Shown piece after piece: positions 19,734 through 47,770 of a DNA stretch of 64,000 nucleotides. The stretch is from contig NZ_JAIXST010000212.1 in NCBI RefSeq assembly GCF_027484545.1, forward strand, positions 1-64,000. The letters are read 5' to 3'. The stretch's first letter is position 1; each line of letters begins with the position of its first letter. Below the pieces are notes generated by a model. That model made no database searches, was not told the DNA's origin, and saw only the letters and a program-made list of their open reading frames with translations. This DNA comes from Runella sp. (GTDB lineage: Bacteria > Bacteroidota > Bacteroidia > Cytophagales > Spirosomataceae). Position numbers and translations under genes: made by a program.

Positions 19734-20105
19734 GGGGCCGCCCTGGTTTTGACAGCGAGTTGAAGCAATACGTATAAGCACGTCGGGACGTGAGCGCGAG
19801 TCCTGTTAAAAACACGCTTAAAACAATAGCTGGCGAATATAGCTACGCTATGGCTGCCTAATCCGGAGTGATTAAGCTTTAGCCATCGTTCCTCCAACCT
19901 CCGCCTTGCTGGTTGGGTCAAGGAGCGTCGAAACGCGAGGCTGGTCGGGTGGATGGTGTTGATACCCGACGAGACACAACACCTAAGGTGGAGGATGAGG
20001 TCTGATTTGAACCTTGCCTACGCTCGAAAATCCAATCAAATCTAAGCGTGTAGAAGGCGTACGGTTTCCTTGTTCTGGACGTGGGTTCGACTCCCACCGG
20101 CTCCA
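19734..20105 (+). ncRNA. ssrA: tmRNA (ssrA)
   Basis: The 5' end GGGGCCG pairs with the 3' CGGCTCC to form the tRNA-like acceptor stem; the T arm is GTGGG-TTCGACT-CCCAC just before it, and the discriminator A is at 20105. The tag frame is at 19829-19861: after the resume codon GCT it reads A-GEYSYAMAA and a stop, very close to known Bacteroidota tags. It rescues stalled ribosomes with SmpB. Its 3' end is the attachment site of the integrative element that begins here; the gene itself is intact. Confidence 0.95.
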
Positions 20106-20108
20106 CAA
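20084..20108. repeat. attL (3' end of ssrA)
   Basis: A 25-bp segment covering the T loop to the 3' end of ssrA. It shares an exact 15-bp core CCACCGGCTCCACAA with attR at 25337 and matches 23 of 25 bases overall. It marks the left junction of the element. Confidence 0.9.
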
Positions 20109-26112: not shown

Positions 26113-26143
26113 CCTTACATTGGCTTATCTTAACGATTTTAAT

Positions 26144-29100
26144 ATGCTTCTTAAATCCCTCACACCCACTGAATCACTCGAAAAAGTTTATCGCTTACAA
26201 TCTGGCAACCGCGAACAGATTGACCGATTCAAAGCCAACTTCACAACCCTGCTGAATCGCATCAACGAACAGGAAAGCGAAGAGAACGTAAAAGGGCATT
26301 TAATGGACTTTCTCAAAGAGGTCTATTACAAAGACGCGTATTTGATAGCCACCAAGGGAAAAACCGATTTTGTGATTCATACCGGCAAAGAAGCCAACGC
26401 CCCCGCCGGGGTACTCTTTGAGGTCAAACGTCCGACCAATAAAGGAGAAATGATTACGCGCGAAAACCTGAACACCAAAGCCATGCAGGAGTTAATCCTG
26501 TATTATTTTCGCGAACGTACCAAAGACAAAAACAGCGATTTACGCTATTGTGTCATTACCAACGTGTATGAATGGTTCATTTTTGACGCGGCTCTGTTCG
26601 AGCGGGTATTTTACAAAAACGCCCATTTAATTAAAGAATATAGGGCTTGGGCGTCGGGGCAAAAAGTGAGTACCAACAATGAACTGTTTTACAACGAAAT
26701 TGCCAAACCGTTTTTGGCCGAGCTGAAGGAGGAAATACCGTTCACCTACTTTGACATTCGCAATTTTAAAAAAATCGTTGCCGATAGCAATACAGCCAAT
26801 GATAAGGCGCTCTTACCCCTTTACAAAATCGTGTCGCCTACGCATCTGCTGAAGCTGCCAACGACGACGGACAGTAATAAACTCAACCCTAAATTTTATT
26901 CCGAACTGCTGCACCTGATTGGCTTGGAGGAGGTAAAAGACGGCGGAAAAAAAGTGATTCGACGCAAAGAAGCCGATAAACGGGACGAGGGGTCATTGCT
27001 CGAAAATACCATTATCCAACTTGATACAGCGGGCAAACTCTACCACCTCCCCGACCGGGCGCAATACGGAGCCACTACGGATGAACAACTGTTCAGCGTT
27101 GCCTTAGAACTTTGTATTACGTGGGTCAATCGAATCTTGTTTCTTAAACTGTTGGAATCGCAGTTGGTCAGTTACCACAACCAAGACAAAACGTATTCTT
27201 TCCTGAACCGCGAAACGATTGCCGATTTTGACGAACTCTTTAAACTGTTTTTTCAGGTCTTAGCCAAACGCCCCTCCGAACGCCGTTCTTCTATCCAAAC
27301 CAAGTTTGGCCGTATTCCTTACCTGAACAGCTCTTTGTTTGAAATTAGCGAATTGGAAGACGCCACCATCAATATCAATAGCCTCGACGATAGCCAAACC
27401 TTACCGCTGTTGAGTAAAAGCGTACTGAACGACAACCCCGCCTATAAAAACGCCAAACAAGTGCCAACGCTCTCTTACCTGTTTGCGTTTTTGGATGCTT
27501 ATGATTTTGCCTCGGAAAGCCGTGAGACGATTCAGGAAAAAAACAGGTCGTTGATTAATGCCTCCGTATTGGGGCTGATTTTTGAGAAAATCAACGGCTA
27601 CAAAGACGGTTCTTTTTATACGCCCGGATTCATCACCGAATACATGTGCCGCGAAACCATTCGTAAGGCGGTGGTTCAGAAGTTCAACGATGCCAAAGGC
27701 TGGAACTGTGCCGATTTTGCCGCGTTGGAAGACAAAGACCTTGATAGAAATGAAGCCAACGCCCTGATCAATGAACTTGCCCTCTGTGATCCTGCCGTGG
27801 GGTCTGGCCACTTTCTGGTATCGGGACTCAACGAACTCATCGCTATCAAGTCGGAACTGGGTATTTTGCAGGATGAAACAGGAAAACGGCTGAAAGGCTA
27901 TACCGTTAGCGTTCTGAATGATGAGTTGATTGTTCTGGATGATGACGAAACGCCGTTTCAATATTTTCTGCAAGCCACTGGAAAACCAACGCCCGAACGC
28001 CAACGCATCCAAAAGACTTTGTTCCACGAAAAACAAACGCTGATTGAAAACTGTCTTTTCGGAGTGGACATTAACCCCAACTCCGTAAAAATTTGCCGTT
28101 TGCGCCTGTGGATTGAGTTATTGAAAAATGCCTATTATACCGAAGAATCGGGTTTTACGGAACTGGAAACCCTCCCCAACATTGACATCAATATCAAGCA
28201 GGGAAACAGCCTTTTGAGCAAATTTAGCCTTACAGAAGACCTGACTGACGTTTTTCAAAAGCAGAAATTTAGTTTTAAAACTTACAAGGATGCTGTTACT
28301 GCGTACAAAAATGTGCGCGATAAAGACGCAAAAAGTGAATTATTAAGGTTTATAGGAGAAATAAAAGAGCAGTTTCGCGATAAAATTATTAATACTGACC
28401 ATCGTCGAAAAAAACTCTCTGTACTACGTGGACAACGTGATGTTTTGGATATTGATACTGACCTATTTGGTACTAAAATTCGCGGTACTAAAATGGTCAA
28501 AGACACTAAATTGATTGAGGATGAAAAGATAAAGTTAGATAAACAAATTGAACAAGCCGAATTAGAATGGGCAAATATTGAAAGTAATGCCCTCTATCGG
28601 GGTTCGTTTGAGTGGCGGTTTGAGTTTCCCGAAGTACTGAACGAAAAAGGCGATTTTGTGGGTTTTGACGCGGTTATCGGTAATCCACCTTACATCCGAC
28701 AGGAGGATTTAGGAGAATCAAAAACATTACTGAAAAAAGATTTCCCCAAAACCTACACGGGTACGGCTGACCTTTACGTGATGTTCGTGGAGCATGGTTT
28801 ACGCATTTTACGCCCCAATGGTCAATTCGTGTTCATCATTCCAAACAAATGGATGAGAGCGGGCTACGGTGAAAACCTCCGTAAATGGCTGAAAACGTTG
28901 GCGATTGAACAAATTGCCGACTTTGGTGATTTGCCCGTTTTTGACGAGGCTACCACCTACCCAAGCATTTTGAGTATTCGTAACGCGCCTGCTTCCAATC
29001 ATTTTCAAGCGGCTCAGATAGATACGTTAAAATATGATGTTGGGTTATCTGATTATGTCCAAGCGAACCGTTTCGAGGTAAATTTTGAAAGTTTAAAAGA

Positions 29101-29959
29101 CGATAGTTGGCAACTCACTAACGGAGCAGTACAGCAACTAATGACCAAATTACGGACAACGGGAACCCCACTTAATGATTATGTAAAGGGTCAAATATAT
29201 TACGGCATAAAGACAGGGCTCAATGAAGCCTTCGTAATTGATGCCGCTACCAAAGATAAATTGATTACGGAAGACGCGCGAAGTGCTGAAGTTATCAAGC
29301 CGTTTTTGGGAGGTAGAGATGTAAAACGTTACCACCCTCCCACGGTTGATAAATTTTTGATATTATTCCGTTCCGGCAGCACAAAAGCAATGTTTGGTAA
29401 GGTGGATGAAGAACCGGCATGGAAACGGCTCCAAAACAATTACCCAGCTATTTGCCAACATCTTGAACCTTTTAAAGACAAAGCAAAAATACGAACAGAT
29501 AAGGGTGAATATTGGTGGGAATTAAGGGCTTGTGCTTACTATGACGAGTTTGAGAAGCCTAAAATTGTCTACCCTAATATTTGTCGACAACCTGAATTTA
29601 TCATTGATAAAGCCTCTTTTTACACAAATCAAAAGTGTTTTATAATTGCCATGGATGATAAATTTCTATTGGCAGTACTCAATAGTAAAGTTACCTACTT
29701 CCTTTTTCAACAGCTATTGCCTACGCTTAGAGGCGGGTTTTATGAACCAAGCAGTATTTATTTTAAAACTTTCCCTATCCCTCACGCATCACCTGAAAAA
29801 AAAGAGTCAATTATCGAATTAGTCAACCAAATAATCACGAACAAATCCAACAATGGCGCGGCCCCCGCCGACACCACCGCCTTAGAATCAGAAATAGACC
29901 GTTTGGTGTATGCGCTGTATGGCTTAACGGAGGAGGAAATCGCGATAGTAGAGGGGTAA
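26144..29959 (+). CDS. Type IIG restriction-modification enzyme (Eco57I-like)
   Basis: 1271 residues from the ATG at 26144. The N-terminal nuclease domain has the PD-(D/E)XK signature (KTDFVIHTG ... FEVKRP, about 75-100). The methyltransferase core follows: motif I DPAVGSGHFLVSG (about 548-560) and motif IV GNPPYIRQ (about 845), the N6-adenine type. A TaqI/Eco57I-like target-recognition region occupies the last 300 residues (YYGIKTGLNEAFVID; PFLGGRDVKRY). A single chain methylates and cuts, so no separate R or S gene is needed. The target sequence is unknown. It looks intact. Confidence 0.9.
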   Translation: MLLKSLTPTESLEKVYRLQSGNREQIDRFKANFTTLLNRINEQESEENVKGHLMDFLKEVYYKDAYLIATKGKTDFVIHTGKEANAPAGVLFEVKRPTNKGEMITRENLNTKAMQELILYYFRERTKDKNSDLRYCVITNVYEWFIFDAALFERVFYKNAHLIKEYRAWASGQKVSTNNELFYNEIAKPFLAELKEEIPFTYFDIRNFKKIVADSNTANDKALLPLYKIVSPTHLLKLPTTTDSNKLNPKFYSELLHLIGLEEVKDGGKKVIRRKEADKRDEGSLLENTIIQLDTAGKLYHLPDRAQYGATTDEQLFSVALELCITWVNRILFLKLLESQLVSYHNQDKTYSFLNRETIADFDELFKLFFQVLAKRPSERRSSIQTKFGRIPYLNSSLFEISELEDATININSLDDSQTLPLLSKSVLNDNPAYKNAKQVPTLSYLFAFLDAYDFASESRETIQEKNRSLINASVLGLIFEKINGYKDGSFYTPGFITEYMCRETIRKAVVQKFNDAKGWNCADFAALEDKDLDRNEANALINELALCDPAVGSGHFLVSGLNELIAIKSELGILQDETGKRLKGYTVSVLNDELIVLDDDETPFQYFLQATGKPTPERQRIQKTLFHEKQTLIENCLFGVDINPNSVKICRLRLWIELLKNAYYTEESGFTELETLPNIDINIKQGNSLLSKFSLTEDLTDVFQKQKFSFKTYKDAVTAYKNVRDKDAKSELLRFIGEIKEQFRDKIINTDHRRKKLSVLRGQRDVLDIDTDLFGTKIRGTKMVKDTKLIEDEKIKLDKQIEQAELEWANIESNALYRGSFEWRFEFPEVLNEKGDFVGFDAVIGNPPYIRQEDLGESKTLLKKDFPKTYTGTADLYVMFVEHGLRILRPNGQFVFIIPNKWMRAGYGENLRKWLKTLAIEQIADFGDLPVFDEATTYPSILSIRNAPASNHFQAAQIDTLKYDVGLSDYVQANRFEVNFESLKDDSWQLTNGAVQQLMTKLRTTGTPLNDYVKGQIYYGIKTGLNEAFVIDAATKDKLITEDARSAEVIKPFLGGRDVKRYHPPTVDKFLILFRSGSTKAMFGKVDEEPAWKRLQNNYPAICQHLEPFKDKAKIRTDKGEYWWELRACAYYDEFEKPKIVYPNICRQPEFIIDKASFYTNQKCFIIAMDDKFLLAVLNSKVTYFLFQQLLPTLRGGFYEPSSIYFKTFPIPHASPEKKESIIELVNQIITNKSNNGAAPADTTALESEIDRLVYALYGLTEEEIAIVEG
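29880..29956. repeat. Direct repeat, left copy (3' end of the RM gene)
   Basis: The last codons of the RM gene. They include CTGTATGGCTTAACGGAGGA and further bases, 35 bp in all (29915-29949), that recur exactly at 30771-30805. Homology extends to about 77 bp with few differences. Confidence 0.85.
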
Positions 29960-30050: not shown

Positions 30051-30398
30051 GTGGAAGGAAATCAGAAAAAACGAACAATTCTTTTCTACAAAGACTACTT
30101 TCAGGAATTCTTTGTAAAACAGCGTGACAAGGTGAAAGACAAAATTGTTTGGACACTTCAACTTATTGAAGAGCTTCCGAAAATTCCAGAAACCTATTTG
30201 AAGCATTTAGAAAATACAGATGGGCTATACGAGTTAAGGATTCAACAAGGCAGTGATATTTTTCGCATTTTCTGTTTTTTTGACCAAGGACAATTAGTTG
30301 TATTAGCCAACGGTTTTCAAAAGAAAACACAAAAGACCCCTAAAAGTGAAATTGAGAAAGCATTAAAAATCAAACAAGAATATGAAAGCGAAAAATAG
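30051..30398 (+). CDS. higB: HigB-like toxin (Gp49/RelE superfamily)
   Basis: 115 residues, GTG start. The pattern is that of Gp49-like HigB toxins: LPKIPETYLKHLENTDGLYELRIQ, then DIFRIFCFFDQGQLVVLANGFQKKTQKTP. These cleave ribosome-associated mRNA. Toxin-first order with the HTH antitoxin second is the normal higBA order. Overlaps higA by 17 bp. Confidence 0.88.
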   Translation: MEGNQKKRTILFYKDYFQEFFVKQRDKVKDKIVWTLQLIEELPKIPETYLKHLENTDGLYELRIQQGSDIFRIFCFFDQGQLVVLANGFQKKTQKTPKSEIEKALKIKQEYESEK

Positions 30399-30684
30399 TG
30401 TCTTGACCCTTGATCAATTCAAGGATAAAAACTACGGAATACCTGGAACCGCAAAACGAGATGCCCTTGAAGCTGGCTATGAAAACTTTAAAATAGGTGC
30501 TTTGATTCACGAAGCAAGGCTGGTGAAAGGTCTAACGCAAGAAGAACTTGCTGAAAAAGTAGGCATGACAAAATCTTATATTTCTAAGATTGAAAACAAC
30601 ATTAAGGAAGTCAGACTTTCAACGCTTCAAAAAATTGTAGAACTTGGTTTAGGTGGACATTTACAACTAAACATAAAATTGTAA
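30382..30684 (+). CDS. higA: HigA-like XRE-family antitoxin
   Basis: 100 residues. The helix-turn-helix is IGALIHEARLVKGLTQEELAEKVGMTKSYISKIENN (read in parts), in the C-terminal half. An N-terminal segment (VLTLDQFKDKNYGIPGTAKRD) would bind the toxin. It probably represses its own operon. Confidence 0.9.
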   Translation: MKAKNSVLTLDQFKDKNYGIPGTAKRDALEAGYENFKIGALIHEARLVKGLTQEELAEKVGMTKSYISKIENNIKEVRLSTLQKIVELGLGGHLQLNIKL

Positions 30685-31351: not shown

Positions 31352-31825
31352 CTAAAAATTGAGTTGAATAATTCCTTTTGGGCGTTTTGTAACATATTCG
31401 GTCGTAAAATCAAACAACCAACGTTTACACTCTATTTGGTAAATGTTGTGCAAAGGATGATTGGATGGATACACCTTTACAAAACAGCCATCAGTTCCTA
31501 ACTTGCGTGAGTATCTGCGTAATCGAAATTTCTCTATTTCTTGCTCATGCTGTTGGTAACTTTCAAAGTCAATAAAAGTTAAAAAGTCAATGTCGTTAGG
31601 GTTAAATTTTCGGCTTATAAAACTTCCATCTATCCATTGTACAAAATCGGCCCCAATCACTTGTTTTAAGGAGTCCATATAGGATAAATAGTTGTTAAAC
31701 CATCTTTGACGTTTACTCATTTCAGAAAACTCTTTTACAAACACCTGTTCAAACGTTTCAAAGTCTGTCAGTATCACTTCATAGGGCGTAAGGTATCCGT
31801 GTTGACGGTCCGCCGCAGCGGTCAA
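31352..31825 (-). CDS. Nucleotidyltransferase-like (MNT-type) protein, N-terminus rearranged
   Basis: About 157 residues. The nucleotidyltransferase motif is DGSFISRKFNPNDIDFLTFID (read in parts): G-S followed by D-x-D. HGYLTPYEVI near the N-terminus is a conserved feature as I remember the family. The ORF can start only from a TTG at 31825. If 13 bp are removed, an ATG at 31838 reads MTFDRQHGYLTPYE, so I infer an insertion at the N-terminus. Whether the protein is still made is unclear. Confidence 0.65.
   Translation of the reverse strand: MTAAADRQHGYLTPYEVILTDFETFEQVFVKEFSEMSKRQRWFNNYLSYMDSLKQVIGADFVQWIDGSFISRKFNPNDIDFLTFIDFESYQQHEQEIEKFRLRRYSRKLGTDGCFVKVYPSNHPLHNIYQIECKRWLFDFTTEYVTKRPKGIIQLNF
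31802..31825. repeat. GACGGTCCGCCG mini-hairpin, copy 2
   Basis: TTGAC..CCGC / GCGG..TCAA palindrome at the N-terminus of the nucleotidyltransferase-like gene. On the minus strand GACCG is repeated 13 bp apart across it. Confidence 0.55.
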
Positions 31826-36129: not shown

Positions 36130-36152
36130 CCCTTCTCTTTATTGGAGAAGGG
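36130..36152. terminator. Hairpin between convergent genes
   Basis: CCCTTCTC / GAGAAGGG, 8-bp stem, with the stop codon of the minus-strand ATPase gene in the loop. No T run follows, so termination is uncertain; it may be an intergenic repeat. Confidence 0.5.
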
Positions 36153-38052
36153 TTAATGATAAATTCGCCTCAAACCATTTTACGCTTTCTTTCAACTCTT
36201 CAATCGTATCATGCATTTCTTCGCCTGCCTTTAGATATTCATTAGGATATTCATCTTTCAAATATTCCATTGTTAAGAAATAAATAGGTTTTAGATGGTC
36301 TTTTAACTCTGGAGTTTCTTGAAAGAGTTTGTAAATAGTATGATACTGTTTCATAGAAATTAGTATCAAATAAAACTCTTGGAGTTGCCAAAAAAGAAGG
36401 TTTTTTAGTTCTTTAACAAAAAAATATGAATAATATTTTAAAGCAAGTTCAATATTGCCCAAAAGAACCAAATGAATAGCTAGCGGGAAAAAGGCATTAA
36501 TTCCATTAGCTTGATTTGATAAATCAAGAGCTACCTTACGTAAATATGCCTTGGAATAATTAGAAATTTTAGATTGGAAATTCTGAACTTCTGAAACAAT
36601 TTCTTTATATATTCTTCTTGTAGATTCAAATAATACTTCGCTATGCCTTTCTTTAAGTAATTCTAAATACTTTTCTCCGTATCCATTATTTTTTAAAAAA
36701 TCAATTGCATTAAGAATTAACTTAAGTTTTTCAGGTAAAACTTCCTCATTCTCCACCATCGAATAAGCCAACGTCCTATCAAAAACCGTATTTAATTCGT
36801 ACGTTCCCTTCTCTAAGTTATTCTCAAATCGTTCAAAAAGTTGTTTGAGGTCGGTAGTGTCGCACCAGCCTTCCAGAAACTTTACAAACCAAATCACTCG
36901 CTGTTTGTCTTGGCGGGTAGAGTAGCGCATTAAGTACCAAATATTGAAAAATCGTTCCTGTAAACGATAGAGATGGGTGCGGCCTGTGGTGCGGGGTTCT
37001 ATTTCAATGATTTGGTTATCCACTAATTGTTTGAGTTGGGCTGATATTTGATTGGTTTTTAAACCTTGTCTTTCCGAGCGGGCCAATTCGGCAATCTCAC
37101 TCACGGTCACGGCATCCCACGCCCGTGCCACAGCATCTACGATGAGTTGCTGCTGTGGTTTGAGGTCGTCCATGCGGTGTTTGTAGAGGGGCGTTACCCG
37201 GTCCAAAATCACCTCCAAGTCTTTAAAACTATCCTGTTTTTCGTTGTCCATAAAGACATCAAAGAGCATCACCATCGTACGTATCACGCCGCCCGATAGT
37301 TTACGCATCACCTCAATGCGCGGACGTTCGGTTTTGAGCATTTCTTGAAATGTCTCGCTTTTGCCTTCGTTTTCGGCCAATTTCTCAAAAAGCGGAATCG
37401 TCTCATCGGTGGTCATGCCTTTGAGCCGAATCTGATAAAAGAAGTCAAAAAATGGCTCTTTGTAATCAAACGTATGTTCGAGCAAGGTAGCTGAGGCACC
37501 CACCAATCGTAGGTGGGGCGAATTCATCAGAATATTGCGGAGGCGGTGCGTGGCGGTTTTGCCAATTTTCTCCAAAAATTGCCCAAAATTGTCGTGAAAA
37601 ACAATGATTTTCTGTTGGTTCTGCTTCAAATAATCCACTAAAATTTCAAAGGCTTTTTGGTCATAGTCGGCTTCGAACTCCTGCTTTCGCATTTCATTCA
37701 AAAGCGTTTCGTAAGCAGGGTGGTCTTCGGCAAGGATTTTGGCAATGTGTTCAAAAAACGCCGCCAAATCGGGCATCGAATACTGTTCTTCGTTAAAAAG
37801 TACAGGAATGAGCCATTTATTGAGTTTTTCATCGTCCAGTACCGCATATTTGAGACGCAGTAAAAGCGTCGTTTTACCCATGCCTCTTTGCCCTAAAATC
37901 ATGTAGTGCTGCGGTGGGTGCTGCATGGTATCCTCCTGAATATCCGTAAATAGTTGTTCAAAAACAGCCGTTCTCACTACAAACTCTGCTTTGAGTTGCA
38001 GTGGTTCTTTTTGAGGAGGATTAAATAGGTATTTTAGTTTTTTATCAGACAT
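36139..38052 (-). CDS. STAND-like P-loop ATPase with winged helix
   Basis: 637 residues from the ATG at 38052, which overlaps the upstream ATPase gene by 8 bp. Walker A is ILGQRGMGKTTLL (about 53-63) and Walker B is QKIIVFHDNFG (D then N rather than E). The arginine-region stretch LRNILMNSPHLRLVGASAT follows. After the ATPase come a winged-helix (about 320-385, ATVSEIAELARSERQ-like) and a helical, TPR-like C-terminal half. This is the plan of signal-transducing NTPases, a group with many defence or regulatory roles. Function unknown. Confidence 0.75.
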   Translation of the reverse strand: MSDKKLKYLFNPPQKEPLQLKAEFVVRTAVFEQLFTDIQEDTMQHPPQHYMILGQRGMGKTTLLLRLKYAVLDDEKLNKWLIPVLFNEEQYSMPDLAAFFEHIAKILAEDHPAYETLLNEMRKQEFEADYDQKAFEILVDYLKQNQQKIIVFHDNFGQFLEKIGKTATHRLRNILMNSPHLRLVGASATLLEHTFDYKEPFFDFFYQIRLKGMTTDETIPLFEKLAENEGKSETFQEMLKTERPRIEVMRKLSGGVIRTMVMLFDVFMDNEKQDSFKDLEVILDRVTPLYKHRMDDLKPQQQLIVDAVARAWDAVTVSEIAELARSERQGLKTNQISAQLKQLVDNQIIEIEPRTTGRTHLYRLQERFFNIWYLMRYSTRQDKQRVIWFVKFLEGWCDTTDLKQLFERFENNLEKGTYELNTVFDRTLAYSMVENEEVLPEKLKLILNAIDFLKNNGYGEKYLELLKERHSEVLFESTRRIYKEIVSEVQNFQSKISNYSKAYLRKVALDLSNQANGINAFFPLAIHLVLLGNIELALKYYSYFFVKELKNLLFWQLQEFYLILISMKQYHTIYKLFQETPELKDHLKPIYFLTMEYLKDEYPNEYLKAGEEMHDTIEELKESVKWFEANLSLTLLQ

Positions 38053-39223
38053 TTTTTGACCACCACTTTTTGAGGATTGGAGAATAAAACCGCCATTGTT
38101 TCTCGTTTGTTTCGGCAATGTACCCGTCATATTCGAGGGTAAGCAGGATATTTTTGAACGATTCTTCGAGGCGATGCTTCACGGCCAAATCGTACAATTC
38201 CAACTCAGCTACGGATTGATATTCAGCGAGCTTTTTGAGTAGTTCGTGTACCAGTGCCAACTCGTTTCGATTAAAAACCTGACTTAAACGTCCACGGTAG
38301 TGTTCGAGGTAAATGCTTCCGTTGAGAACCAACTCATTGAAAGCTTGGTCAATAAAAGCCCTGTTTACTTCGCGAGCATCAATACGATGTAAATCACGGA
38401 TTTCTTTGATGGCCAGTTGAATATGAAACGGAATCAGCCATTCAATTTTCTCTTTCAATAAGTACGTTAAAACCTCGTTCGAAGCCTCAATTTGATAGTT
38501 TTCGAGTAACGTTTTGGCTAACTCTAACGCATCTTTTAACGATAACGGACGTAGTTTATAGGTCTGAATATCATTGACATCCGCAGTTGCGTTGAGCTTT
38601 TTGACTACAGAAAGTAAGCCAATGGAACCCGTATAAATGAACTTGATTTTTTGATTGTACTTGTCATTTTGGCGGATGGCGCGATTTTGCTTCAGGAAAT
38701 TTCGAGCAGCCTGTTCGCCTTGCTCGTCACGGATGTGTTCAATAGTAACCGGGAATTCATCAATCATCAACAGAATTTTGCGATTGTCTAAATCCGCTTT
38801 TTCGAGAAAGTCCTTGAATTTTTCGTAGTAATCCAGCTTTTCATCGGCTTTTTCATTGAAGTCTATTTTGACTCCACCCACTTCGACGTTGTCAATGCTG
38901 CTTAGAAAACTTTTGATTTTCTTACCTGCCTTTTCGATAGTTTTTAGAAAACGATTCTTGTTTTCGATGTCAAAGATGGCTTTGAGGAGTACTTTAAAAA
39001 AGGTTTGACTATCACTAACATCTTCTGTATCTACATAAACACAGTAGTATTCGTCGGCAGGATTGTCTTTGATGTAATGGATAATGGATGTTTTGCCCAC
39101 TCGCCTAGGAGCTGAAAGCAACAAGTTTTGTCCTTCTTCAAGGGCTTCGTAAATTTCATCCACAATGTCGTCCCGAAGAAAGAAATTATCACCTGTTGCA
39201 GTTTTACCAATGCTTAATTTCAT
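38045..39223 (-). CDS. P-loop ATPase of the archaeal-ATPase (ATPase_2) type
   Basis: 392 residues. Walker A is LLLSAPRRVGKTSII (about 34-48) and Walker B is ILLMIDEFPV; the sensor region KIKFIYTGSIGLL follows. The C-terminal third is a winged-helix module (LELYDLAVKHRLEESFKNILLTLEYDGYI) typical of the family. First gene of a two-gene operon with the STAND-like ATPase. The role is unknown; the promoter has a five-box TTGCA array. Confidence 0.8.
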   Translation of the reverse strand: MKLSIGKTATGDNFFLRDDIVDEIYEALEEGQNLLLSAPRRVGKTSIIHYIKDNPADEYYCVYVDTEDVSDSQTFFKVLLKAIFDIENKNRFLKTIEKAGKKIKSFLSSIDNVEVGGVKIDFNEKADEKLDYYEKFKDFLEKADLDNRKILLMIDEFPVTIEHIRDEQGEQAARNFLKQNRAIRQNDKYNQKIKFIYTGSIGLLSVVKKLNATADVNDIQTYKLRPLSLKDALELAKTLLENYQIEASNEVLTYLLKEKIEWLIPFHIQLAIKEIRDLHRIDAREVNRAFIDQAFNELVLNGSIYLEHYRGRLSQVFNRNELALVHELLKKLAEYQSVAELELYDLAVKHRLEESFKNILLTLEYDGYIAETNEKQWRFYSPILKKWWSKNV

Positions 39224-39248
39224 AAGTAGAATCTTTTTGTAAAAGTAA

Positions 39249-39308
39249 GTTGCATTACTTTTATTGCAAAAATTTATTGCATTTTTTTTATTGCAAAGTC
39301 TTGTTGCA
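39249..39308 (-). promoter_or_regulatory. Five TTGCA boxes upstream of the two-ATPase operon
   Basis: (A/G)TTGCA occurs at 39249, 39263, 39276, 39290 and 39303, spaced 14, 13, 14 and 13 bp. On the coding (minus) strand these are TGCAA(T/C) boxes separated by A-rich spacers, ending 26 bp before the ATG. An iteron-like operator array. Confidence 0.75.
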
Positions 39309-39310
39309 AA

Positions 39311-39357: not shown

Positions 39358-39711
39358 TTAATGCGCGTGCGATTCTGCCGTTTTTTGGCAGCAACTTGGT
39401 AACTTATCATGAGCCGTTTGGCTGCATTGCAGATTGTCGGCGTCATAACCCGTATCGGTAATTACTTTCCGAATTTGAGTTTCGTCGGTTTTTTTAGGAT
39501 TGTATTTTACTGTTACTACCTTATCCTCCAGGTTTAATACGGCTTCGGTGATGCCTTTGCTGAGCGTCAGGTTTTTCTCGATGCGTTCTTTGCACATCTC
39601 ACAAACGGCCGAAGTTTTGATTTTGACCTCTTTGTCTTTGCTTGGTTTATTGGCAGTTGAACTAAATACCACTCCCAAAATCAAGGCGAATACGAATGTT
39701 AACTGTTTCAT
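39358..39711 (-). CDS. Periplasmic heavy-metal-associated (HMA) protein
   Basis: 117 residues. Signal peptide, then an HMA ferredoxin-like domain with the metal site SAVCEMCKERIEKNL (CxxC) and the end GYDADNLQ. The C-terminus adds CSQ, SCCQKT and a His-rich tail (ESHAH), extra metal ligands. It probably carries Cu(I) in the periplasm. Last gene of the copper cluster. Confidence 0.88.
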   Translation of the reverse strand: MKQLTFVFALILGVVFSSTANKPSKDKEVKIKTSAVCEMCKERIEKNLTLSKGITEAVLNLEDKVVTVKYNPKKTDETQIRKVITDTGYDADNLQCSQTAHDKLPSCCQKTAESHAH

Positions 39712-39728
39712 TGGTTTATAGCCCCCAA

Positions 39729-39739
39729 CCCCGAAGGGG
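39729..39739. repeat. CCCC-GAA-GGGG hairpin with T run
   Basis: CCCCGAAGGGG followed by AGTTTTTTT in the 90-bp gap between the HMA and TonB-receptor genes. It resembles the C/G-rich hairpin at 11483. Confidence 0.5.
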
Positions 39740-39801
39740 AGTTTTTTTGTTGTCCATGCCTTGGGGTTATAAGGGATGGTTTGTGAAAATTGATTTTTAC
39801 T

Positions 39802-42057
39802 TTAGTCTTTTACTTTTATTCTTATGCCGGCATAAATTACCCGCCCTACTACCGGGCCCCACGTTTGACCTGCGTCAAAATATTTACTGAACGGGTCTTC
39901 TGCGTGAATGATTGGATTCATTTGTTTAAAATTCGCTAAATTTTCTCCTCCTAAATATACCTCAAACTTTTTGAATGCTCTGGATACTTGTCCGTTTATG
40001 TTTATAAACGATTGAGAATACAAAATAGGCATAGGTTTGCGATCAACAGTTGCCTGTAAGGATTTCATGGGGTCATTTATTCTCGCTTTTCCGTTCCATT
40101 GGAAGGTTAAATCGGCTTTCCACTTATCATAAGGCAAGGTGTATCCAATGTTAAAAAGGATACGTTCTCTCGGAATCATCATTCGTTGCATCAAACGTAC
40201 ATCGTTGGCGGGCTGTCCCATGGTTTGCCACACATCAAACAAACGGTATGCCAATTTCACTTCAGTACGTTTTGATAACAACGTATTCAGTTCAACCTGA
40301 AAGCTATTTGAGTAGGATTTTCCCTTCAGATTGTAAAAATATAAATGCGACGCCAACGGAGTGGCGTGGTCAGTATCGGCAATAAGTTGGTTTTGAAAGT
40401 TGGTGCGGTAGTAATCCACCACCACATCCCAGTGTTTATCAAACCAGTGAAAAGTTTGGGTTAGACTGATGCCGTAGTTCCAGGAAACTTCGGGATTGAT
40501 TCTTCCTCCCCAAAAACGAACGGCTCGCCCGCTAACCAAATAGCCGTAGTTCTCAGCGAAAGCATTGGGAGTCCGCTGCCCTCGTCCCGCTGATATGCGT
40601 AGAGCCGTGTGTTCCAAAAGTTGCCAACGTGCGTGCAGGCGCGGCGTGACAAAGGCACCGAACAAATTATTATAATCAGCACGTAAGCCGGCTACGAGGG
40701 TAAACTTCTCCAAATGATTGAAGGTATATTCAAAAAACGCTCCCGGAACTGATTCGGTTCGAGTCATCAAACTATCCTTGTACGTTTCACGGTAATCATC
40801 CAACAGATAACTCAACCCCGTTTTAAACTGATGATTAGTATTGCTGATAATGGACTGGTAAATTAAATTTCCGTACAGCGTCCGTTGGCGACCGTCGTAA
40901 TTGGCAAATCCAAAATAGGAATCTGTATTATGCTGTGAGGCATTCAGAATCAATCCTAATCCTTTATAAGGTTGGTCTTGGTATAATTTTGCCGTTTTTG
41001 AAAACAACTCGATTCGGTTGGTTTGGTTACCAAACCCATAAAATTTGGCGGTTCCTCGGTGCTCAGAAGGGTAAAACCCGATTTGACCGCCAATCCGATT
41101 TTCGGCCAATGCTTTTACCCCAAATTGCACCATAATTTTGTCGCTTTTGTATTGCCAACGATTTATTCCGTTGAACTGTGTATAAAGCGGTAAGTCCATA
41201 AATCCATCACCGTTGTGGTCAATGCGGTTTTGCAAAGTACTGACGTGGGTTAGAAAACCCGTTGACCATTTTTCGGATAACTTACGATTGATATTTAAAT
41301 TGAGTTCTCCACGGCCTAAATGGTTGACATACGCATTGAAATACATTTTTTCGCGTGCATCGGGTTTCACTAATTCCACATTGATGGCACCCGTCAGGCT
41401 TTCGTAGCCATTGACTACCGAACCTGCACCTTTGGCTACGTCAATGGACTGAATCCATGTTCCGGGAATGTAATTCATCCCAAAAGTCGAAGCTAACCCG
41501 CGAATGGTGGGGACGTTCTCGACGTTGGTTTGGACGTATTGGCCACCTAATCCTAAAAATTGAATTTGCTTTGCACCCGTCACGGCATCACTGTAACTTA
41601 CTGAAACGGAAGCATTGGTTTCAAAACTTTCGGATAAATTGCAGCAAGCCGCTTTAGCCAATGCTTTGGTGGTAATGATTTCGGTTTGAATGGGATTCAG
41701 TCGATCGATTTGAGTGGATGTAGCTCGAACTATGACCTCGCCCAACTGTCCCTGAGGCTTCATCACGATTTCGAAATTGCTTTCGGAAGTTACCTTTATG
41801 GAGTCGGTTTTGAATCCAATATAGCTCAAAACCAATACATTAGATTTAGCCGAACGGGCAATGTTAAATTTTCCTACGGAATCTGTGATTGTAGCCAACG
41901 AGGTACCGCTCCAAAATACATTTACCCCCACTAAGGCCGATTTTTTCCCTGCTTCATTACGCTCATAAACGGTTCCTGTTACGCGTTGTGCGTTTAAGGT
42001 AGTGAGTAAAAAGCAATGAGTAATAAGTATAAAAAGGACAGCTATTTTTGTTTTCAT
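39802..42057 (-). CDS. TonB-dependent outer-membrane receptor, copper-linked
   Basis: 751 residues. Signal peptide ending LNAQ, a carboxypeptidase-regulatory-like domain (RVTGTVYERNEAG...VLSYIGFKTDSI), plug domain (about 115-225) with CCNLSESFETNASVSVS, then a 22-strand-type barrel ending IYAGIRIKV. It imports a substrate using TonB energy. Position after a multicopper oxidase and before an HMA protein suggests copper or a copper chelate; this is an inference. Confidence 0.85.
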   Translation of the reverse strand: MKTKIAVLFILITHCFLLTTLNAQRVTGTVYERNEAGKKSALVGVNVFWSGTSLATITDSVGKFNIARSAKSNVLVLSYIGFKTDSIKVTSESNFEIVMKPQGQLGEVIVRATSTQIDRLNPIQTEIITTKALAKAACCNLSESFETNASVSVSYSDAVTGAKQIQFLGLGGQYVQTNVENVPTIRGLASTFGMNYIPGTWIQSIDVAKGAGSVVNGYESLTGAINVELVKPDAREKMYFNAYVNHLGRGELNLNINRKLSEKWSTGFLTHVSTLQNRIDHNGDGFMDLPLYTQFNGINRWQYKSDKIMVQFGVKALAENRIGGQIGFYPSEHRGTAKFYGFGNQTNRIELFSKTAKLYQDQPYKGLGLILNASQHNTDSYFGFANYDGRQRTLYGNLIYQSIISNTNHQFKTGLSYLLDDYRETYKDSLMTRTESVPGAFFEYTFNHLEKFTLVAGLRADYNNLFGAFVTPRLHARWQLLEHTALRISAGRGQRTPNAFAENYGYLVSGRAVRFWGGRINPEVSWNYGISLTQTFHWFDKHWDVVVDYYRTNFQNQLIADTDHATPLASHLYFYNLKGKSYSNSFQVELNTLLSKRTEVKLAYRLFDVWQTMGQPANDVRLMQRMMIPRERILFNIGYTLPYDKWKADLTFQWNGKARINDPMKSLQATVDRKPMPILYSQSFININGQVSRAFKKFEVYLGGENLANFKQMNPIIHAEDPFSKYFDAGQTWGPVVGRVIYAGIRIKVKD

Positions 42058-42084
42058 TTCAACATTTTCTAAAATTAAAAATTT

Positions 42085-44316
42085 CTAATAATTAAGTGAG
42101 AAACCTGCGCCAAAGCCCATATCGCTGTCGTAATGGGTTGAAAACCCTACGTTTTTGTTAATAATGAAGCGAAGTCCGGCCATGTATTCTTTGTCGGTAT
42201 TCCACATTAAGTTCATTCGCAGGCGACTACTAATCGGAATGTCTTTTCGCTCTATCTGAAAGCGTAGATTGCCGTCAGTAAACACTTCGGCTTGAGCAAT
42301 GATAAGCATGGGCAACGTGTAATTCACCCCAAAACTAAGCACTGCTCGATTATCTTTGGTGTTGCTTTGCCCGAAAAGATTTGTTTCTTTTTGATCAAAA
42401 CCGAGCTTTCGGAAACGCCAATCAAAGCCCACAAACGGCATTAACCATTGCATTTTACCGATGTACCTTCCGATATGGGTCTCGGTTTCGTAACCGTGTT
42501 TATCATGGTAGCCCAAGCGCCACTCTGTACCTATACTCCAACTTGTATTTGAGTACATTGCTTCGCCATCATTGCCGTTTGTCTCAAAACCATTCTCTGC
42601 CATCAAATGAAATGTTCGGTCATCGGCAAATAATTTGCGCTTGGCCAGCTTAGGATGGGGAATTTCAGGGTTCTTTGGACTGTTTTCGTAACTAAAAATT
42701 CGCCCCATTCCTGCCATCATATGGTATAAAATATGACAATGAAAAAACCAATCACCGCTCTCGGTAGCAGCAAATTCTAAGGTGTCAGTTTCCATTGGCA
42801 TGATATCAATGACATTTTTTAAAGGAGCATAATCACCTTGTCCGTTGAGTACCCTAAAATCGTGGCCGTGTAAGTGCATAGGGTGACGCATCATTGAACC
42901 ATTGTAAAGTATCATCCGCACGGTTTCCCCTTTTTTTATTAGAATGCGTTCGCTTTCCGAAACCACTTTATTATTTAAACTCCACACGTAACGATTCATG
43001 TTTCCTGACAATTCAAAACGCAGTTGTTTAACCGGAGCATTCTTTGATAAATTGGTTTTTGTGGGCGATTTCAACATAGCATAGTTCAACGTAACAGTTG
43101 TTTGTGATTGCCCCATTGCATGCTTATCAGTTGCCGTGTCGGAGGAAGGAGAACCTGTAATTTCGGGATACATGACCATGTTCATGTCCATTTGATTTAA
43201 GCTCATACTCATTCCCATATCGTCCAAATCACCATTCATCTTCATCATCCCATTCATCATTTTCATGCCCTCAAAATAGGTGAGTTTTGGTAACGGGTTG
43301 GCTTTTAATTTATTACCGGTCCCCAAAAACAAGGAGGCGGATTTTGTTCGATCCTCAGACGTAGCTAAAAACTCATAGGAAGTGTTTTTGTCAGGAATGG
43401 TAACAATGACATCGTAGGTTTCTGAAACAGCGATAATTAATCTATCTACCTCAACGGGTTCTACATCATTACCGTCGTTGGCCACAACCGTTATTTTACC
43501 ACCTGCATACGTAAGCCAGAAATAAGTGGATGCTCCACCGTTTGAAATTCTTAATCGGATTTTATCACCGGCTTTAAATTGTGTAAGTTGACTTTCATTC
43601 CTGCCATTGATGAGAAATTTGCTGTAATAAACATCGCTCACGTCCATGGCATTCATTCGCATCCACTCATTGACAATTTTAGTCTTAAAATAGCCTTTCT
43701 TCAGGGCTTCGGTGTAGCTTTGTGTACTGCCTTTTTGAATCGCAAACCAATCAGTAGCATTGTGTAACATACGGTGCACGTTTTCGGGCTTCATATCTGT
43801 CCACTCACTCAATATAATGGGCAGTGTGGGGAGATCGGATTCGTCTTTTCTGTTCAGAATCATGGAGCCATACATACCGATTTGCTCCTGTAAACTCGAA
43901 TGACTATGGTACCAATGGGTGCCGTGCTGACTTATAAGAAACTTATACAAATGCGTTGTATGTGGTTTGATTGGCATCTGTGTCAGGTTAGGCACACCAT
44001 CATATTGATTGGGTAAAAACAAACCGTGCCAATGCAAAGACGTTTCTTCGTTCAGTTCGTTATGAACGTAAATCTCTGCCGTGTCGTCTTCGGTAAAAGT
44101 CAGGGTGGGCATAGGTATTTGCCCATTTACGGCAATGGCTCTTTTGGGTTTGTTACCAAATAGTACGGTAGTGTCTCGAATATATAAATCGTAATGAACT
44201 ACTTTGGGTTTACTTGTACCACCTTTTTGAGGTACGGGCATGGAATACTGCTTCTGTTGGGCAAAAACAGGAATCAAAATAACTAAAAAAATAAAAATGT
44301 TTGCTAAAAATCTCAT
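42085..44316 (-). CDS. Multicopper oxidase with fused CopB-like beta-barrel
   Basis: 743 residues from the ATG at 44316 (MRFLANIFIFLVILIPVFAQ signal). The copper sites are TSLHWHGLF, THWYHSHSS, RHPMHLHGHDF and FFHCHILYHMMAGM, all four type 1-3 ligand clusters. A Met-rich segment (MKMMNGMMKMNGDLDDMGMS) near 360 is typical of CopA/CueO copper-oxidising enzymes. After about residue 580 the sequence becomes a barrel-like module (YETETHIGRYIGKMQW ... GFSLNY) resembling the outer-membrane protein CopB. It likely oxidises Cu(I) at the cell surface. Confidence 0.85.
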   Translation of the reverse strand: MRFLANIFIFLVILIPVFAQQKQYSMPVPQKGGTSKPKVVHYDLYIRDTTVLFGNKPKRAIAVNGQIPMPTLTFTEDDTAEIYVHNELNEETSLHWHGLFLPNQYDGVPNLTQMPIKPHTTHLYKFLISQHGTHWYHSHSSLQEQIGMYGSMILNRKDESDLPTLPIILSEWTDMKPENVHRMLHNATDWFAIQKGSTQSYTEALKKGYFKTKIVNEWMRMNAMDVSDVYYSKFLINGRNESQLTQFKAGDKIRLRISNGGASTYFWLTYAGGKITVVANDGNDVEPVEVDRLIIAVSETYDVIVTIPDKNTSYEFLATSEDRTKSASLFLGTGNKLKANPLPKLTYFEGMKMMNGMMKMNGDLDDMGMSMSLNQMDMNMVMYPEITGSPSSDTATDKHAMGQSQTTVTLNYAMLKSPTKTNLSKNAPVKQLRFELSGNMNRYVWSLNNKVVSESERILIKKGETVRMILYNGSMMRHPMHLHGHDFRVLNGQGDYAPLKNVIDIMPMETDTLEFAATESGDWFFHCHILYHMMAGMGRIFSYENSPKNPEIPHPKLAKRKLFADDRTFHLMAENGFETNGNDGEAMYSNTSWSIGTEWRLGYHDKHGYETETHIGRYIGKMQWLMPFVGFDWRFRKLGFDQKETNLFGQSNTKDNRAVLSFGVNYTLPMLIIAQAEVFTDGNLRFQIERKDIPISSRLRMNLMWNTDKEYMAGLRFIINKNVGFSTHYDSDMGFGAGFSLNY

Positions 44317-44326
44317 TATCAATAGT

Positions 44327-44881
44327 TTACATGCTTTCAAATGTAAACGCTACACTTAGATATACCCAGCTCATTTTGATTTCACCTTTGTTTGATTTAA
44401 TTGGAAGGACTTCGTACGTTAGTGTCTCCACTAATTCTTTATTTGTTGCGGGCTTTACAGTCAGTCGAATTATGTCATCTTCCTGCTTATAATCGTCAGC
44501 TAAGTGCATGTCCCATGTTTTGCTTAATATCAATGTCCATTCTTTTTCATTTGGAATCGTAAAAAAGCCGTACCTCCCTTTCGAGATATGTTTGCCTTGA
44601 ATCATCACATCTTTTGAAAATTCAATCCAAGTGGCTTTGTGCGCCCCCGTTGCCCACACCTGATTGTAGGCAACCAAACCATTCCAAATAGTACGACCCC
44701 TGACGCTCGGCGAGCCGTAATCAATATGAACGTGATTGTCACCCACCATCGCCATTGCTGACAAACGTGGGCTTTTAGGCTTAGCAGCAGTTTTAGTAGT
44801 GTCCGCTTTTAGATGCTCGTGTTGGGCAAACAAACCGTTTGTTAAAAAAAGAGAAATACTGAAAATGATTAAAAGTTTCAT
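44327..44881 (-). CDS. DUF2911 domain protein, exported
   Basis: 184 residues from the ATG at 44881 with a signal peptide. DUF2911 features: VHIDYGSPSVRGRTIWNGLVAYNQVWATGAHKATWIEF (read in parts), then GRYGFFTIP and EWTLIL. The function of the family is unknown. It lies 10 bp before the multicopper oxidase start and adds a His-rich start (AQHEHLK). Part of the copper operon. Confidence 0.88.
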   Translation of the reverse strand: MKLLIIFSISLFLTNGLFAQHEHLKADTTKTAAKPKSPRLSAMAMVGDNHVHIDYGSPSVRGRTIWNGLVAYNQVWATGAHKATWIEFSKDVMIQGKHISKGRYGFFTIPNEKEWTLILSKTWDMHLADDYKQEDDIIRLTVKPATNKELVETLTYEVLPIKSNKGEIKMSWVYLSVAFTFESM

Positions 44882-44901
44882 AATAAATTTGAGTTGTAAG
44901 T

Positions 44902-45972
44902 TCAAAATTTCAAAACAATTCCGTTGGGTTTTGCCCCTACTTTAATGTCTTTGATTTTTGTATGTTTCATTGCATCAATGACAGATACTGAAGCGGCATC
45001 CTGATTGGTTACATAAGCAGTTGAACCTTTAAATGCAATAGCGTGGGCTCCGGCGGCAGTTATCAACGTGCCACCATGCGCAAATTTTCCGTTAGAGTCT
45101 TGCTTCCACCAATGTACTTTTCCTACTATTGGGTCGGTTATCCAAAGTTCTTTCAATTCAGCATTGTAGGCCGCATATCCCGGCATAAAACCCAACTCAA
45201 CGGTTTCTACTACTTTCAACGTCTTTACGTCAATGATTGAAACAGTTTGTCCATCTTCGTTGTCCACGTACATCCGATTATCGGCACCCATCCACGCACC
45301 TACGGGATTTTTGCCCACCGAAATCGTAGCCGTAACAGCTTTAGTAGTGGGATGAATGGCAGAAACGGTGTTTTCTTCGCCGTTGGCAACAAAAGCAATG
45401 GAGCCATCTGCCGAAAATGTTATCTCAGCAGGTTCTTTACCTACCTTAATGGTATTTTTAAGGGCGTATGTGGTGGCATCATAGACTAAAATTTTACCAT
45501 CATGATCCATTTGTGAAGTCCAAATCTCTTTACCATCGGGGGTATAAATGGCGTTGTGGTTCATCTTCGGGAGTTCAATCAGCTTGATATTTTGTCCTTT
45601 CACCGCATCCACAATCAGCACTTTTGCTGTGCTTTTATGAGTAGGATCGGCGCCGTGTCCGCCGCTCAGGTTGATACCGGGGTCGGCAATAGCGATTTGG
45701 TTTTGAGCAGGATTTAAGTAAATGTGGTGCGGATAGGCCAAAAATATCCCTGAACCATGTGCCATGCCCGTCATTCCATCTGTAAGCTGCACCAAATCCG
45801 TTACCTCATTGGTATTGAGATTGATGATGGACAGGGTACTGCTTTCCCCATTTACTACATAAGCTGCCGGGTAATCAATATTCAGTTTGGGCGTTGCCGA
45901 ACCCATATCCATGCAGGCGGAGACGATAAAACTACTTATCCACACTACGAGAATTTTGATAAATCTTTTCAT
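44902..45972 (-). CDS. YncE-like beta-propeller lipoprotein
   Basis: 356 residues. Lipoprotein signal ending IVSAC. Seven repeats of YVTN-type: AYVVNGESSTLSIINLNTNEV, ITFSADGSIAFVANGEENTVSAI, AYVTNQDAASVSVIDAMKHTKI. Such propellers are exported binding or electron-transfer scaffolds. Co-located with DUF3347 and the multicopper oxidase, hence a probable metal-handling role. Confidence 0.85.
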   Translation of the reverse strand: MKRFIKILVVWISSFIVSACMDMGSATPKLNIDYPAAYVVNGESSTLSIINLNTNEVTDLVQLTDGMTGMAHGSGIFLAYPHHIYLNPAQNQIAIADPGINLSGGHGADPTHKSTAKVLIVDAVKGQNIKLIELPKMNHNAIYTPDGKEIWTSQMDHDGKILVYDATTYALKNTIKVGKEPAEITFSADGSIAFVANGEENTVSAIHPTTKAVTATISVGKNPVGAWMGADNRMYVDNEDGQTVSIIDVKTLKVVETVELGFMPGYAAYNAELKELWITDPIVGKVHWWKQDSNGKFAHGGTLITAAGAHAIAFKGSTAYVTNQDAASVSVIDAMKHTKIKDIKVGAKPNGIVLKF

Positions 45973-45979
45973 AGGAATA

Positions 45980-46522
45980 TTAGTTTAAAGTTTCGGTTAC
46001 TTTTCCGCAAGTCAGCATCATTTTACCGTAGTATGGGTTTTTGATGGCCGAATTATCACTCAACCAGTACGCTTTTTTCATAGGGCAATACTGCTGATAC
46101 ACCGGCTTGTCGTTAATTTTCAGTGCCTTCAAAACTGCAAAAAGATTGTTAGATAAATCGTTGAAACGGGCGCGTTGTTGCTCGGTGTCTTGAGTTTTGG
46201 CAATGAACTCGGCATCCAATTTAATCTTGGGGGCCAATGGCATATACAAATCGTGTTGCTCTTTGGTCATATTGGCGACATCAATTTTGGTAAATTCCTG
46301 CAAAAAATCGTTGGCTTTTTGTTGCGCTGTTTTGCCGTCGGTAGCTACCAAAGCGTCTTTTATACCATAATAATGAACCAACAAGGAATTGATTTGAACT
46401 TTAATGTCGGTAATTATCCCTGCCTTAGCAGCATTGTTACTTAAGGCTACATTTGCACGAGAATGACTGATAATAAATGCTGAATGAAAAATAAGCATGG
46501 CAAAAATGAATGTCTTTTTCAT
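45980..46522 (-). CDS. DUF3347 domain protein, exported
   Basis: 180 residues with a signal peptide. The family features are IQVNSLLVHYYGIKDALVATDGKTAQQ and the C-terminal YCPMKKAYWLSDNSAIKNPYYGKMMLTCGKV (read in parts); the CPM and C in this block are likely metal ligands. DUF3347 accompanies Cu/Ag efflux proteins in Bacteroidota. First gene of the main copper operon, 7 bp before the propeller gene. Confidence 0.88.
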   Translation of the reverse strand: MKKTFIFAMLIFHSAFIISHSRANVALSNNAAKAGIITDIKVQINSLLVHYYGIKDALVATDGKTAQQKANDFLQEFTKIDVANMTKEQHDLYMPLAPKIKLDAEFIAKTQDTEQQRARFNDLSNNLFAVLKALKINDKPVYQQYCPMKKAYWLSDNSAIKNPYYGKMMLTCGKVTETLN

Positions 46523-46606
46523 GTTTTTTTGTTTAATTTAAAATTAACCCTACAATTTCTATGATGTCCATCTTTGGCTTCATAGGTATTATTTTATTGT
46601 ACCATA

Positions 46607-46662
46607 CAAAGGTATGTGGAGACGGCCTGTAGAACTTTACACATTTATCGCAATGTTTTACA
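46607..46662 (-). promoter_or_regulatory. Copper operon promoter with a candidate AraC operator
   Basis: Minus-strand TACCTTTG (46607-46614) is a TAnnTTTG -7 box about 85 bp before the DUF3347 ATG. Upstream, TGTAAA occurs twice exactly 21 bp apart (46657-46662 and 46636-46641), the proximal copy overlapping where a -33 box would be. A two-turn direct repeat at that place is the classical layout for an AraC-family activator. Confidence 0.55.
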
Positions 46663-46675
46663 TCATTTTGGATTC

Positions 46676-47245
46676 TCAAACCTGGTCTAAGGAAAGGCGA
46701 TTTTTCGCCGCTGCCTGTTTGAATTGACTGGGTGTCAGACCTGTTACTTTTTTAAATTGATTAGACAAATGCCCTACACTGCTGTACTGTAGCTCATCGG
46801 CAATTTGGCTCAGACTTTGCTCGTCGTACATCAATAACTCTTTGACCCGCTCAATTTTTTGACGAATGATGTATTGCTCAATGGTACTGCCTTCGTGAGT
46901 AGAAAACAACGTGCTTAACCCGCTATAATCACGGCTCAATTTTTCAGATAAATAATCGGAAAAATTGCTTTTGAAATGCTCATGTTGCGGGTTGTGAATC
47001 AATTCAATGACCACATTTTTGATTTTCTCTACGATGCGACTTTGTTTGTCGTCCAGCAATTCAAAACCGTGTCGGTTCAGTAATTCAGCAAGAGTTTCTA
47101 ATTGAGAAGAACTTAAATTTTCGGCGGTTTGAATCTCTCCCAGTTCGGTACTCATCACGTGGGCACCTACTTGTCTAAATGAGTCCTCAACCACCATCTT
47201 GCAGCGGTCGCAGACCATGTTTTTGATATGGAATAGTATAGACAT
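46676..47245 (-). CDS. AraC-family regulator with metal-binding-like N-terminus
   Basis: 189 residues. Residues 1-70 look like an HMA/ferredoxin-like domain (LFHIKNMVCDRCKMVVEDSFRQVG, CxxC), and residues about 85-180 are the AraC DNA-binding domain: IERVKELLMYDEQSLSQIADELQYSSVGHLSNQFKKVTGLTPSQFKQ (read in parts). A compact copper sensor fused to a DNA-binding domain is the simplest reading. It lies directly upstream of the copper operon it probably controls. Confidence 0.82.
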   Translation of the reverse strand: MSILFHIKNMVCDRCKMVVEDSFRQVGAHVMSTELGEIQTAENLSSSQLETLAELLNRHGFELLDDKQSRIVEKIKNVVIELIHNPQHEHFKSNFSDYLSEKLSRDYSGLSTLFSTHEGSTIEQYIIRQKIERVKELLMYDEQSLSQIADELQYSSVGHLSNQFKKVTGLTPSQFKQAAAKNRLSLDQV

Positions 47246-47323
47246 TGTTCAATCAGTTAGATTAGACATAAACACCAATTGCCCGTAAGCCGACTGCCTA
47301 CGAGAAGAAACAAATGGATTACT

Positions 47324-47770
47324 CTAAATCAAAAAAGATTGAACAAAAGAAAGCAGACTTCGCCCGTGAAACAGCGAAGAAAAGGAAGATAAATGGGCAG
47401 AAGAGTCCGTACCGGAGGAAAAAAGCGAAATAATTGCTTTGAATACGGCTATGAATGCTCCAATGACTGCATCACTGGCTACTTTAAGGATTTTGGCCAC
47501 CCATTGTGCCAACGAAGACGAAACATCTACGTTTTCGTAGCTTTGGTCATCGTCACAACACGCTTGTTTTTGGAGTGAAGTCTTATATGAAATAGGAGAC
47601 TTTGAATGCTCTTGCTGACAACCCTTAGCACCTTCTTTTTGTAAAGCTGCCAAGTGCAATGACTTGCCCCGCATCATGCAGTGATGCTCAATCACACCAA
47701 ACCCCGTACTCGCCGTCAGTATGAGCAGAGCCAAGAGAATAGTGAAGTAATTGCGGAGTGTCGTTTTCAT
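47324..47770 (-). CDS. HYC_CC_PP-like membrane protein
   Basis: 148 residues. N-terminal signal or membrane segment, then VIEHHCMMRGK (HHC where the family has HYC), a Cys-rich stretch with CQQEHSK and QACCDD (CC), then a second hydrophobic segment. The proline pair of the family name is not evident, so it is a divergent member. The Cys/His sites suggest metal binding. Upstream member of the copper cluster. Confidence 0.65.
   Translation of the reverse strand: MKTTLRNYFTILLALLILTASTGFGVIEHHCMMRGKSLHLAALQKEGAKGCQQEHSKSPISYKTSLQKQACCDDDQSYENVDVSSSLAQWVAKILKVASDAVIGAFIAVFKAIISLFSSGTDSSAHLSSFSSLFHGRSLLSFVQSFLI

Follow-up and report, generated by a model that had tools for sequence, protein, structure and literature searches.

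What is the function of two different P-loop ATPase genes that overlap each other and are preceded by a dense array of TTGCA boxes? Such a pair lies in the window (the whole 64,000-nucleotide stretch of a Runella contig analysed here), and an earlier note had read it as a self-regulated defence or conflict module. We favour, with slightly better than even confidence, an autoregulated two-component module of STAND-type ATPases, probably of the conflict or defence type. NCBIfam has no name for either window protein, and nothing relevant to this ATPase pair was found in the literature. The unit is laid out as follows:

39250..39309, minus strand: operator array; its five TTGCA/TGCAA half-sites make up imperfect dyads of 22 bp that repeat every 27 bp
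38045..39223, minus strand: ATPase1, an AAA_14/SSO1545-type ATPase with a C-terminal wHTH, 392 aa
38045..38052, minus strand: 8-bp overlap of the ATPase1 stop with the ATPase2 start; translational coupling
36139..38052, minus strand: ATPase2, a STAND-like ATPase with a wHTH, a variable TPR-like region and a conserved C-terminal cap

The five boxes start at 39250, 39264, 39277, 39291 and 39304, which bears out the alternating 14/13-bp spacing and 27-bp superperiod first described for them; their arrangement can be refined. A description as five equal direct repeats was rejected: read on the coding strand, each box is one half of an inverted repeat, and these imperfect dyads (TTTGCA-N10-TGCAA) recur every 27 bp. 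From the array end to the ATPase1 ATG is 27 bp. The spaced TTGCA triple has three matches in the window, compared to none in 100 shuffles, and none elsewhere in the 7.1-Mb genome. A whole-genome scan with the dyad TTTGCAATAAAAAAAATGCAA found no other site with two or fewer mismatches, and three stray sites at three mismatches. We considered the array as a regulator of other genes of the same genome and rejected this, finding no convincing sites. The 8-bp gene overlap claimed by the earlier note is exact (38045-38052); it measures 4-25 bp in the other members examined, with one case of 44 bp.

A repeat array was found 5' of ATPase1 in nearly all relatives read, later-fetched loci included, with a few left unjudged due to a misplaced start or a contig end. 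The motifs fall into at least six classes, first spotted by eye; 36 of the 109 upstream regions were not classable automatically, and automatic counting of GAC versus TGC is noisy. Examples are TTGCAATA; TTGACAATA...TATTGTCAA; TATACAAATTTGTATA; GTACAACAAATTTGTTGTAC; GAATAAATTC; and CCAACAAA...TTTGTTGG. A strict inverted-repeat score was only weakly raised and separated less well, being too strict for imperfect arrays, and a general, motif-free repeat score was used instead; its median z was 2.28 for ATPase1 promoters versus 0.58 for neighbouring control promoters (p=2e-5), and -0.06 for the regions 5' of ATPase2. At one locus (L161) a tandem repeat of TCACTCTTCGTTATTCACTCTTCACTTT adjoins the array and inflates the repeat score; it is unrelated to the operator class.

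Which protein might read these arrays is suggested by the ATPase2 recognition helix. ATPase2 has 637 aa from its ATG; residue numbers here count one codon earlier, from 38055.

36940..37164, minus strand: ATPase2 wHTH, approximately residues 298-372, with recognition helix TNQISAQLKQL
37051..37053, minus strand: codon of ATPase2 residue 335 (Asn; 334 from the ATG), the putative specificity residue

Residue 335, which opens the recognition helix (334-346 in the AF2 model), is Lys in all 16 representatives with GAC arrays, and Asn in all four with TACAAC arrays and three of four with TGC arrays, the fourth of these (L103) being misclassed, with an array that on inspection is GAC-type. It is the top ATPase2 column for separating GAC from TGC (z 15.2, next 5.9), and the best ATPase1 column reaches only 4.2. 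Loci fetched later agree (L216 is Asn/TGC; L213, L217, L218, L224 and L106 are Lys/GAC), with one exception, L110, which has Lys with TTGCAA and a helix that aligns poorly. This covariation is partly confounded by phylogeny. Three loci (L086, L106 and L110) have ATPase2 without ATPase1, and all three keep an array. Because of the covariation and the retention of arrays at such loci, ATPase2 is probably the protein that binds the array.

The array also appears to be fitted to the promoter. The pattern TTG-N18-22-TAnnTTTG occurs within the array in 54 of the 109 upstream regions; about 1.2 would be expected from simple shuffles, a weak null since the half-sites themselves contain TTG. The Bacteroidetes promoter consensus is TTTG/TAnnTTTG (PMC6847099), and in Bacteroidota consecutive half-sites provide the -33 element with its TTG and the -7 element with its TTTG; such double use of the half-sites would explain the 27-bp period. 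The window array is a near match only, with extra spacing. This placement over the promoter suggests repression by occlusion, i.e. autorepression, in Bacteroidota. There is thus good support for the term 'self-regulated' in the earlier note: nearly all readable relatives have an array, it covers the promoter, and its class covaries with the ATPase2 recognition helix.

AF2 modelling and domain searches agree in part with the architectures first proposed. ATPase1 matches Pfam AAA_14 (29.5 bits, cutoff 27), with a Walker A at approximately residues 38-46 (APRRVGKTS) and a Walker B DE at 155-156, these residues being invariant among relatives. In ATPase2 the models nSTAND_NTPase5, AAA_16 and ATPase_2 were all sub-threshold and DAP3 was just above its cutoff; Pfam TPR is clear in its relatives. 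The AF2 models (pLDDT 89 for ATPase1, 86 for ATPase2) predict a wHTH in both proteins, as expected from the earlier note, followed in ATPase2 by TPR-like helices and then the C-terminal cap; the ATPase1 model has no TPR-like helices. The best Foldseek matches of both are the archaeal SSO1545 (2fna) and PABY2304 (2qen), which lack a TPR region and any known array or partner, at approximately 15% identity. Further matches of the models are Orc1/Cdc6, CED-4, Apaf-1 and Dark, and for ATPase2 also EfAvs5. Domain searches found no effector domain in either ATPase, as had been supposed from the sequence.

The TPR-like region of ATPase2 is far more variable than the parts on either side of it.

36301..36795, minus strand: ATPase2 hypervariable TPR-like region, residues 421-585, putative sensor
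36142..36300, minus strand: ATPase2 conserved C-terminal cap, residues 586-638, 74-79% identity to orthologues

In the comparison with G031 at the same locus, ATPase1 is 93-98% identical, and ATPase2 is 96-99% identical over residues 1-420, 55% over 421-480, 29% over 481-560, and again 79% over 586-638. With G095, G111 and G094 as references, identity falls to 6-12% over residues 481-560 and is 84-96% over the first 420. Two Spirosoma lineages with other array classes repeat this pattern of variable TPR and conserved flanks, so that over the three lineages the N-terminal side shows 81-99% identity and most of the TPR region 6-55%. Such variability resembles that of arms-race recognition regions, as in immune receptors; relaxed constraint may be an alternative source of the divergence.

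The pair is a discrete unit with a wide and sporadic distribution. At least 147 relatives turned up among 84,980 species scanned, at unrelated loci in Bacteroidota, Proteobacteria, Campylobacterota, Fusobacteriota, Acidobacteriota, Planctomycetota and other phyla. Of 200 family genomes, 32 have ATPase1 and 31 have ATPase2, and the two genes are nearly always neighbours. TPR proteins overwhelmed a phylum search with the profile of the whole ATPase2, and the N-terminal profile used instead (A6) has matches in 29 of 222 family genomes. ATPase1 is immediately upstream of ATPase2 in 77 of the 80 retained relatives, and no conserved third gene lies beside the pair in the relatives examined. Of 12 Runella genomes that have the flanking esterase, several show an empty site and run from the esterase stop through a terminator hairpin to the HMA gene. 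This marks the unit as a discrete, approximately 3.2-kb cassette that is gained or lost. In the window the cassette is situated between terminators. Three TATAC-class pairs of Runella and Spirosoma (L076, L078 and L081) lie directly 3' of what appears by eye to be a class II fumarase gene in both genera, a possible preferred insertion site at a terminator. Phage or prophage carriage was considered and rejected: no homologue of the pair was found in 50,697 phage records or in viral contigs, which therefore give no sign of it.

In their way of working, the closest known systems would be the IniR/MalT regulators and the STAND defence proteins. The pair belongs to the STAND class by fold, with an SSO1545/Orc/CED-4-type P-loop ATPase followed by a winged helix according to AF2 and Foldseek; the C-terminal repeats of the class are found in ATPase2 and are missing from ATPase1. 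Like the STAND defence NTPases (Avs, bNACHT, nSTAND), it has the sensor layout of ATPase, wHTH and repeats, a hypervariable sensor region, and structural matches to CED-4, Apaf-1, Dark and EfAvs5; it differs in comprising two separate STAND-like proteins with no fused effector and a private, co-diversifying operator array, and in being recognised by neither PADLOC nor NCBIfam models. In PADLOC-DB 2.0 neither protein significantly matches a system, the best being partial matches to mad8 (E=1.2e-4 and 7e-3). The pair looks like an undescribed, unnamed relative of the phage-defence sensor ATPases, outside the catalogued defence systems.

Among other explanations, the one that survives best, unlikely as we find it, is a pair of ligand-responsive regulators like MalT and IniR, physiological rather than immune, which controls its own operon only. 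In mycobacterial IniR, a trehalose-responsive regulator of an adjacent operon, an SSO1545-like ATPase is combined with a helical repeat like that of MalT and with a domain that binds DNA; with E. coli MalT it shares oligomerisation (PMC5760070). The SSO1545 matches of both our ATPases and the mostly housekeeping contexts fit this reading. However, the HTH of IniR and MalT is of the LuxR type and C-terminal, and these proteins control operons other than their own, whereas the ATPase2 wHTH lies between ATPase and TPR; neither Pfam nor the AF2 model shows an HTH at the ATPase2 C-terminus, which forms a conserved helical cap, and the array is found only 5' of its own operon, with no other target site in the genome. 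Patchiness within the family also argues against this reading, as does the TPR region, whose divergence at orthologous loci far outpaces that of the other parts; a metabolite sensor would not usually behave so.

Somewhat less probable again is a toxin-antitoxin or addiction module, in which one ATPase would be harmful and the other would both counteract it and repress the operon. Its organisation of overlapping genes under an autoregulatory operator array is similar, and in Arcicella aurantiaca (L086) the ATPase1 slot is occupied by a gene of a toxin family, Abi_2 (HEPN; 28.9 bits, cutoff 25.6), AbiF being known for toxicity (PMC12373285). A TTGCA-type array precedes this Abi_2 gene, which is followed after 7 bp by an ATPase2 that is 69% identical to that of the window; the exchange is a single case. 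Described AbiF is under small-RNA control (PMC12373285), and no small RNA was detected at the Arcicella locus. Against an addiction module, type II systems consist of a small toxin and a neutralising partner, and the ATPase/TPR proteins of 390-970 aa are unlike known pairs, with no toxin domain by Pfam; moreover, the putative repressor is the second, larger gene, and ATPase2 stands alone in two loci. A relic of a plasmid or mobile replicon, with iteron-like array and Orc/Cdc6-like initiators, is suggested by the array directly 5' of Orc/Cdc6-fold ATPases with wHTH and by the discrete mobile cassette, but is highly improbable given an array fitted to the promoter, single chromosomal two-gene units without replication or partition genes, and the hypervariable TPR region.

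Under the preferred reading of an autoregulated STAND-type module, (i) an ATPase2 oligomer would bind the upstream array through its wHTH; (ii) the operon would be kept low, because the bound dyads cover the promoter; (iii) the hypervariable TPR region would sense a fast-evolving ligand (most likely a product of a phage or mobile element, or a perturbation that such a product causes), and changes in nucleotide state and oligomerisation would lead to derepression, activation of the partner, or both; and (iv) the coupled ATPase1 would be the output or a co-receptor, and a replaceable one, as the arrangement with Abi_2 HEPN in Arcicella suggests. As to how it might act, its fold relatives of the Orc/Cdc6 and CED-4 type make ATP-driven assembly, on DNA or on protein, the likeliest guess.

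Links to defence are found at some loci. A Moraxella osloensis plasmid (AP031474) carries the pair with a clear 27-bp array and a third gene that overlaps ATPase2 and matches PD-Lambda-4_A (5.6e-127), its N-terminus matching Avs4 (2.3e-67). At the equivalent site of plasmid CP024184, ATPase1 is interrupted by an IS5 element, and the pair is followed by dUTPase, PRTase-CE, ORC-CDC6-like, CARF and N6-methylase genes. The region (L223-L226) is a variable defence-like site beside a DUF389/mechanosensitive-channel pair, where the same ATPase pair has differing downstream genes and TIR and SIR2 genes lie nearby. At another locus (L108) a TIR gene precedes ATPase1. The nearest neighbours are nevertheless mostly housekeeping genes; of 105, PADLOC models at 1e-10 pick out a small minority (a raw count, without a background rate). 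Defence-island enrichment judged from these neighbours is weak, and this context weakens the defence reading. The 'defence or conflict module' of the earlier note is thus plausible as a prediction, favoured by the hypervariable TPR region, patchiness, the Arcicella Abi_2 and the Moraxella plasmid operons. The contrary picture also drawn there, of homologues that are always single genes, lack the array and have housekeeping surroundings, is contradicted by the pairing and the arrays and holds in part for context.

A bolder proposal, about which we are slightly more doubtful than confident, is that of a widespread NLR-like immune module, with a hypervariable, self-repressing ATPase receptor, a co-diversifying array that has a readable amino-acid/base code, and a replaceable output (ATPase1 or Abi_2). 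If true, a widespread sensor-ATPase system is absent from the defence catalogue searched, its receptor diversification is visible between same-locus orthologues, and its operator code is open to single-residue swaps; STAND transcription regulators (IniR, MalT) would be linked to STAND immune receptors, and the pair is defined well enough that its trigger may be found by comparing hypervariable regions.

Elsewhere in the window, a type IIG restriction-methylation enzyme (26120-29959, plus strand; PADLOC 960 bits) lies approximately 6 kb from the pair and gives the region one defence gene. Directly after it comes a HigB/HigA-like toxin-antitoxin pair (Gp49 and HTH_3; 30051-30684, plus strand), adjoined by a DUF6932 protein (95 bits; 31352-31825, minus strand). 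On the other side of the ATPase pair is an apparent copper/metal cluster (39358-47770) with an HMA-domain protein, a TonB receptor, a multicopper-oxidase-like protein and a regulator (46676-47245) that looks by eye like a fusion of an HMA-like domain with an AraC HTH. A tmRNA gene lies at 19734-20108 (Rfam RF00023).
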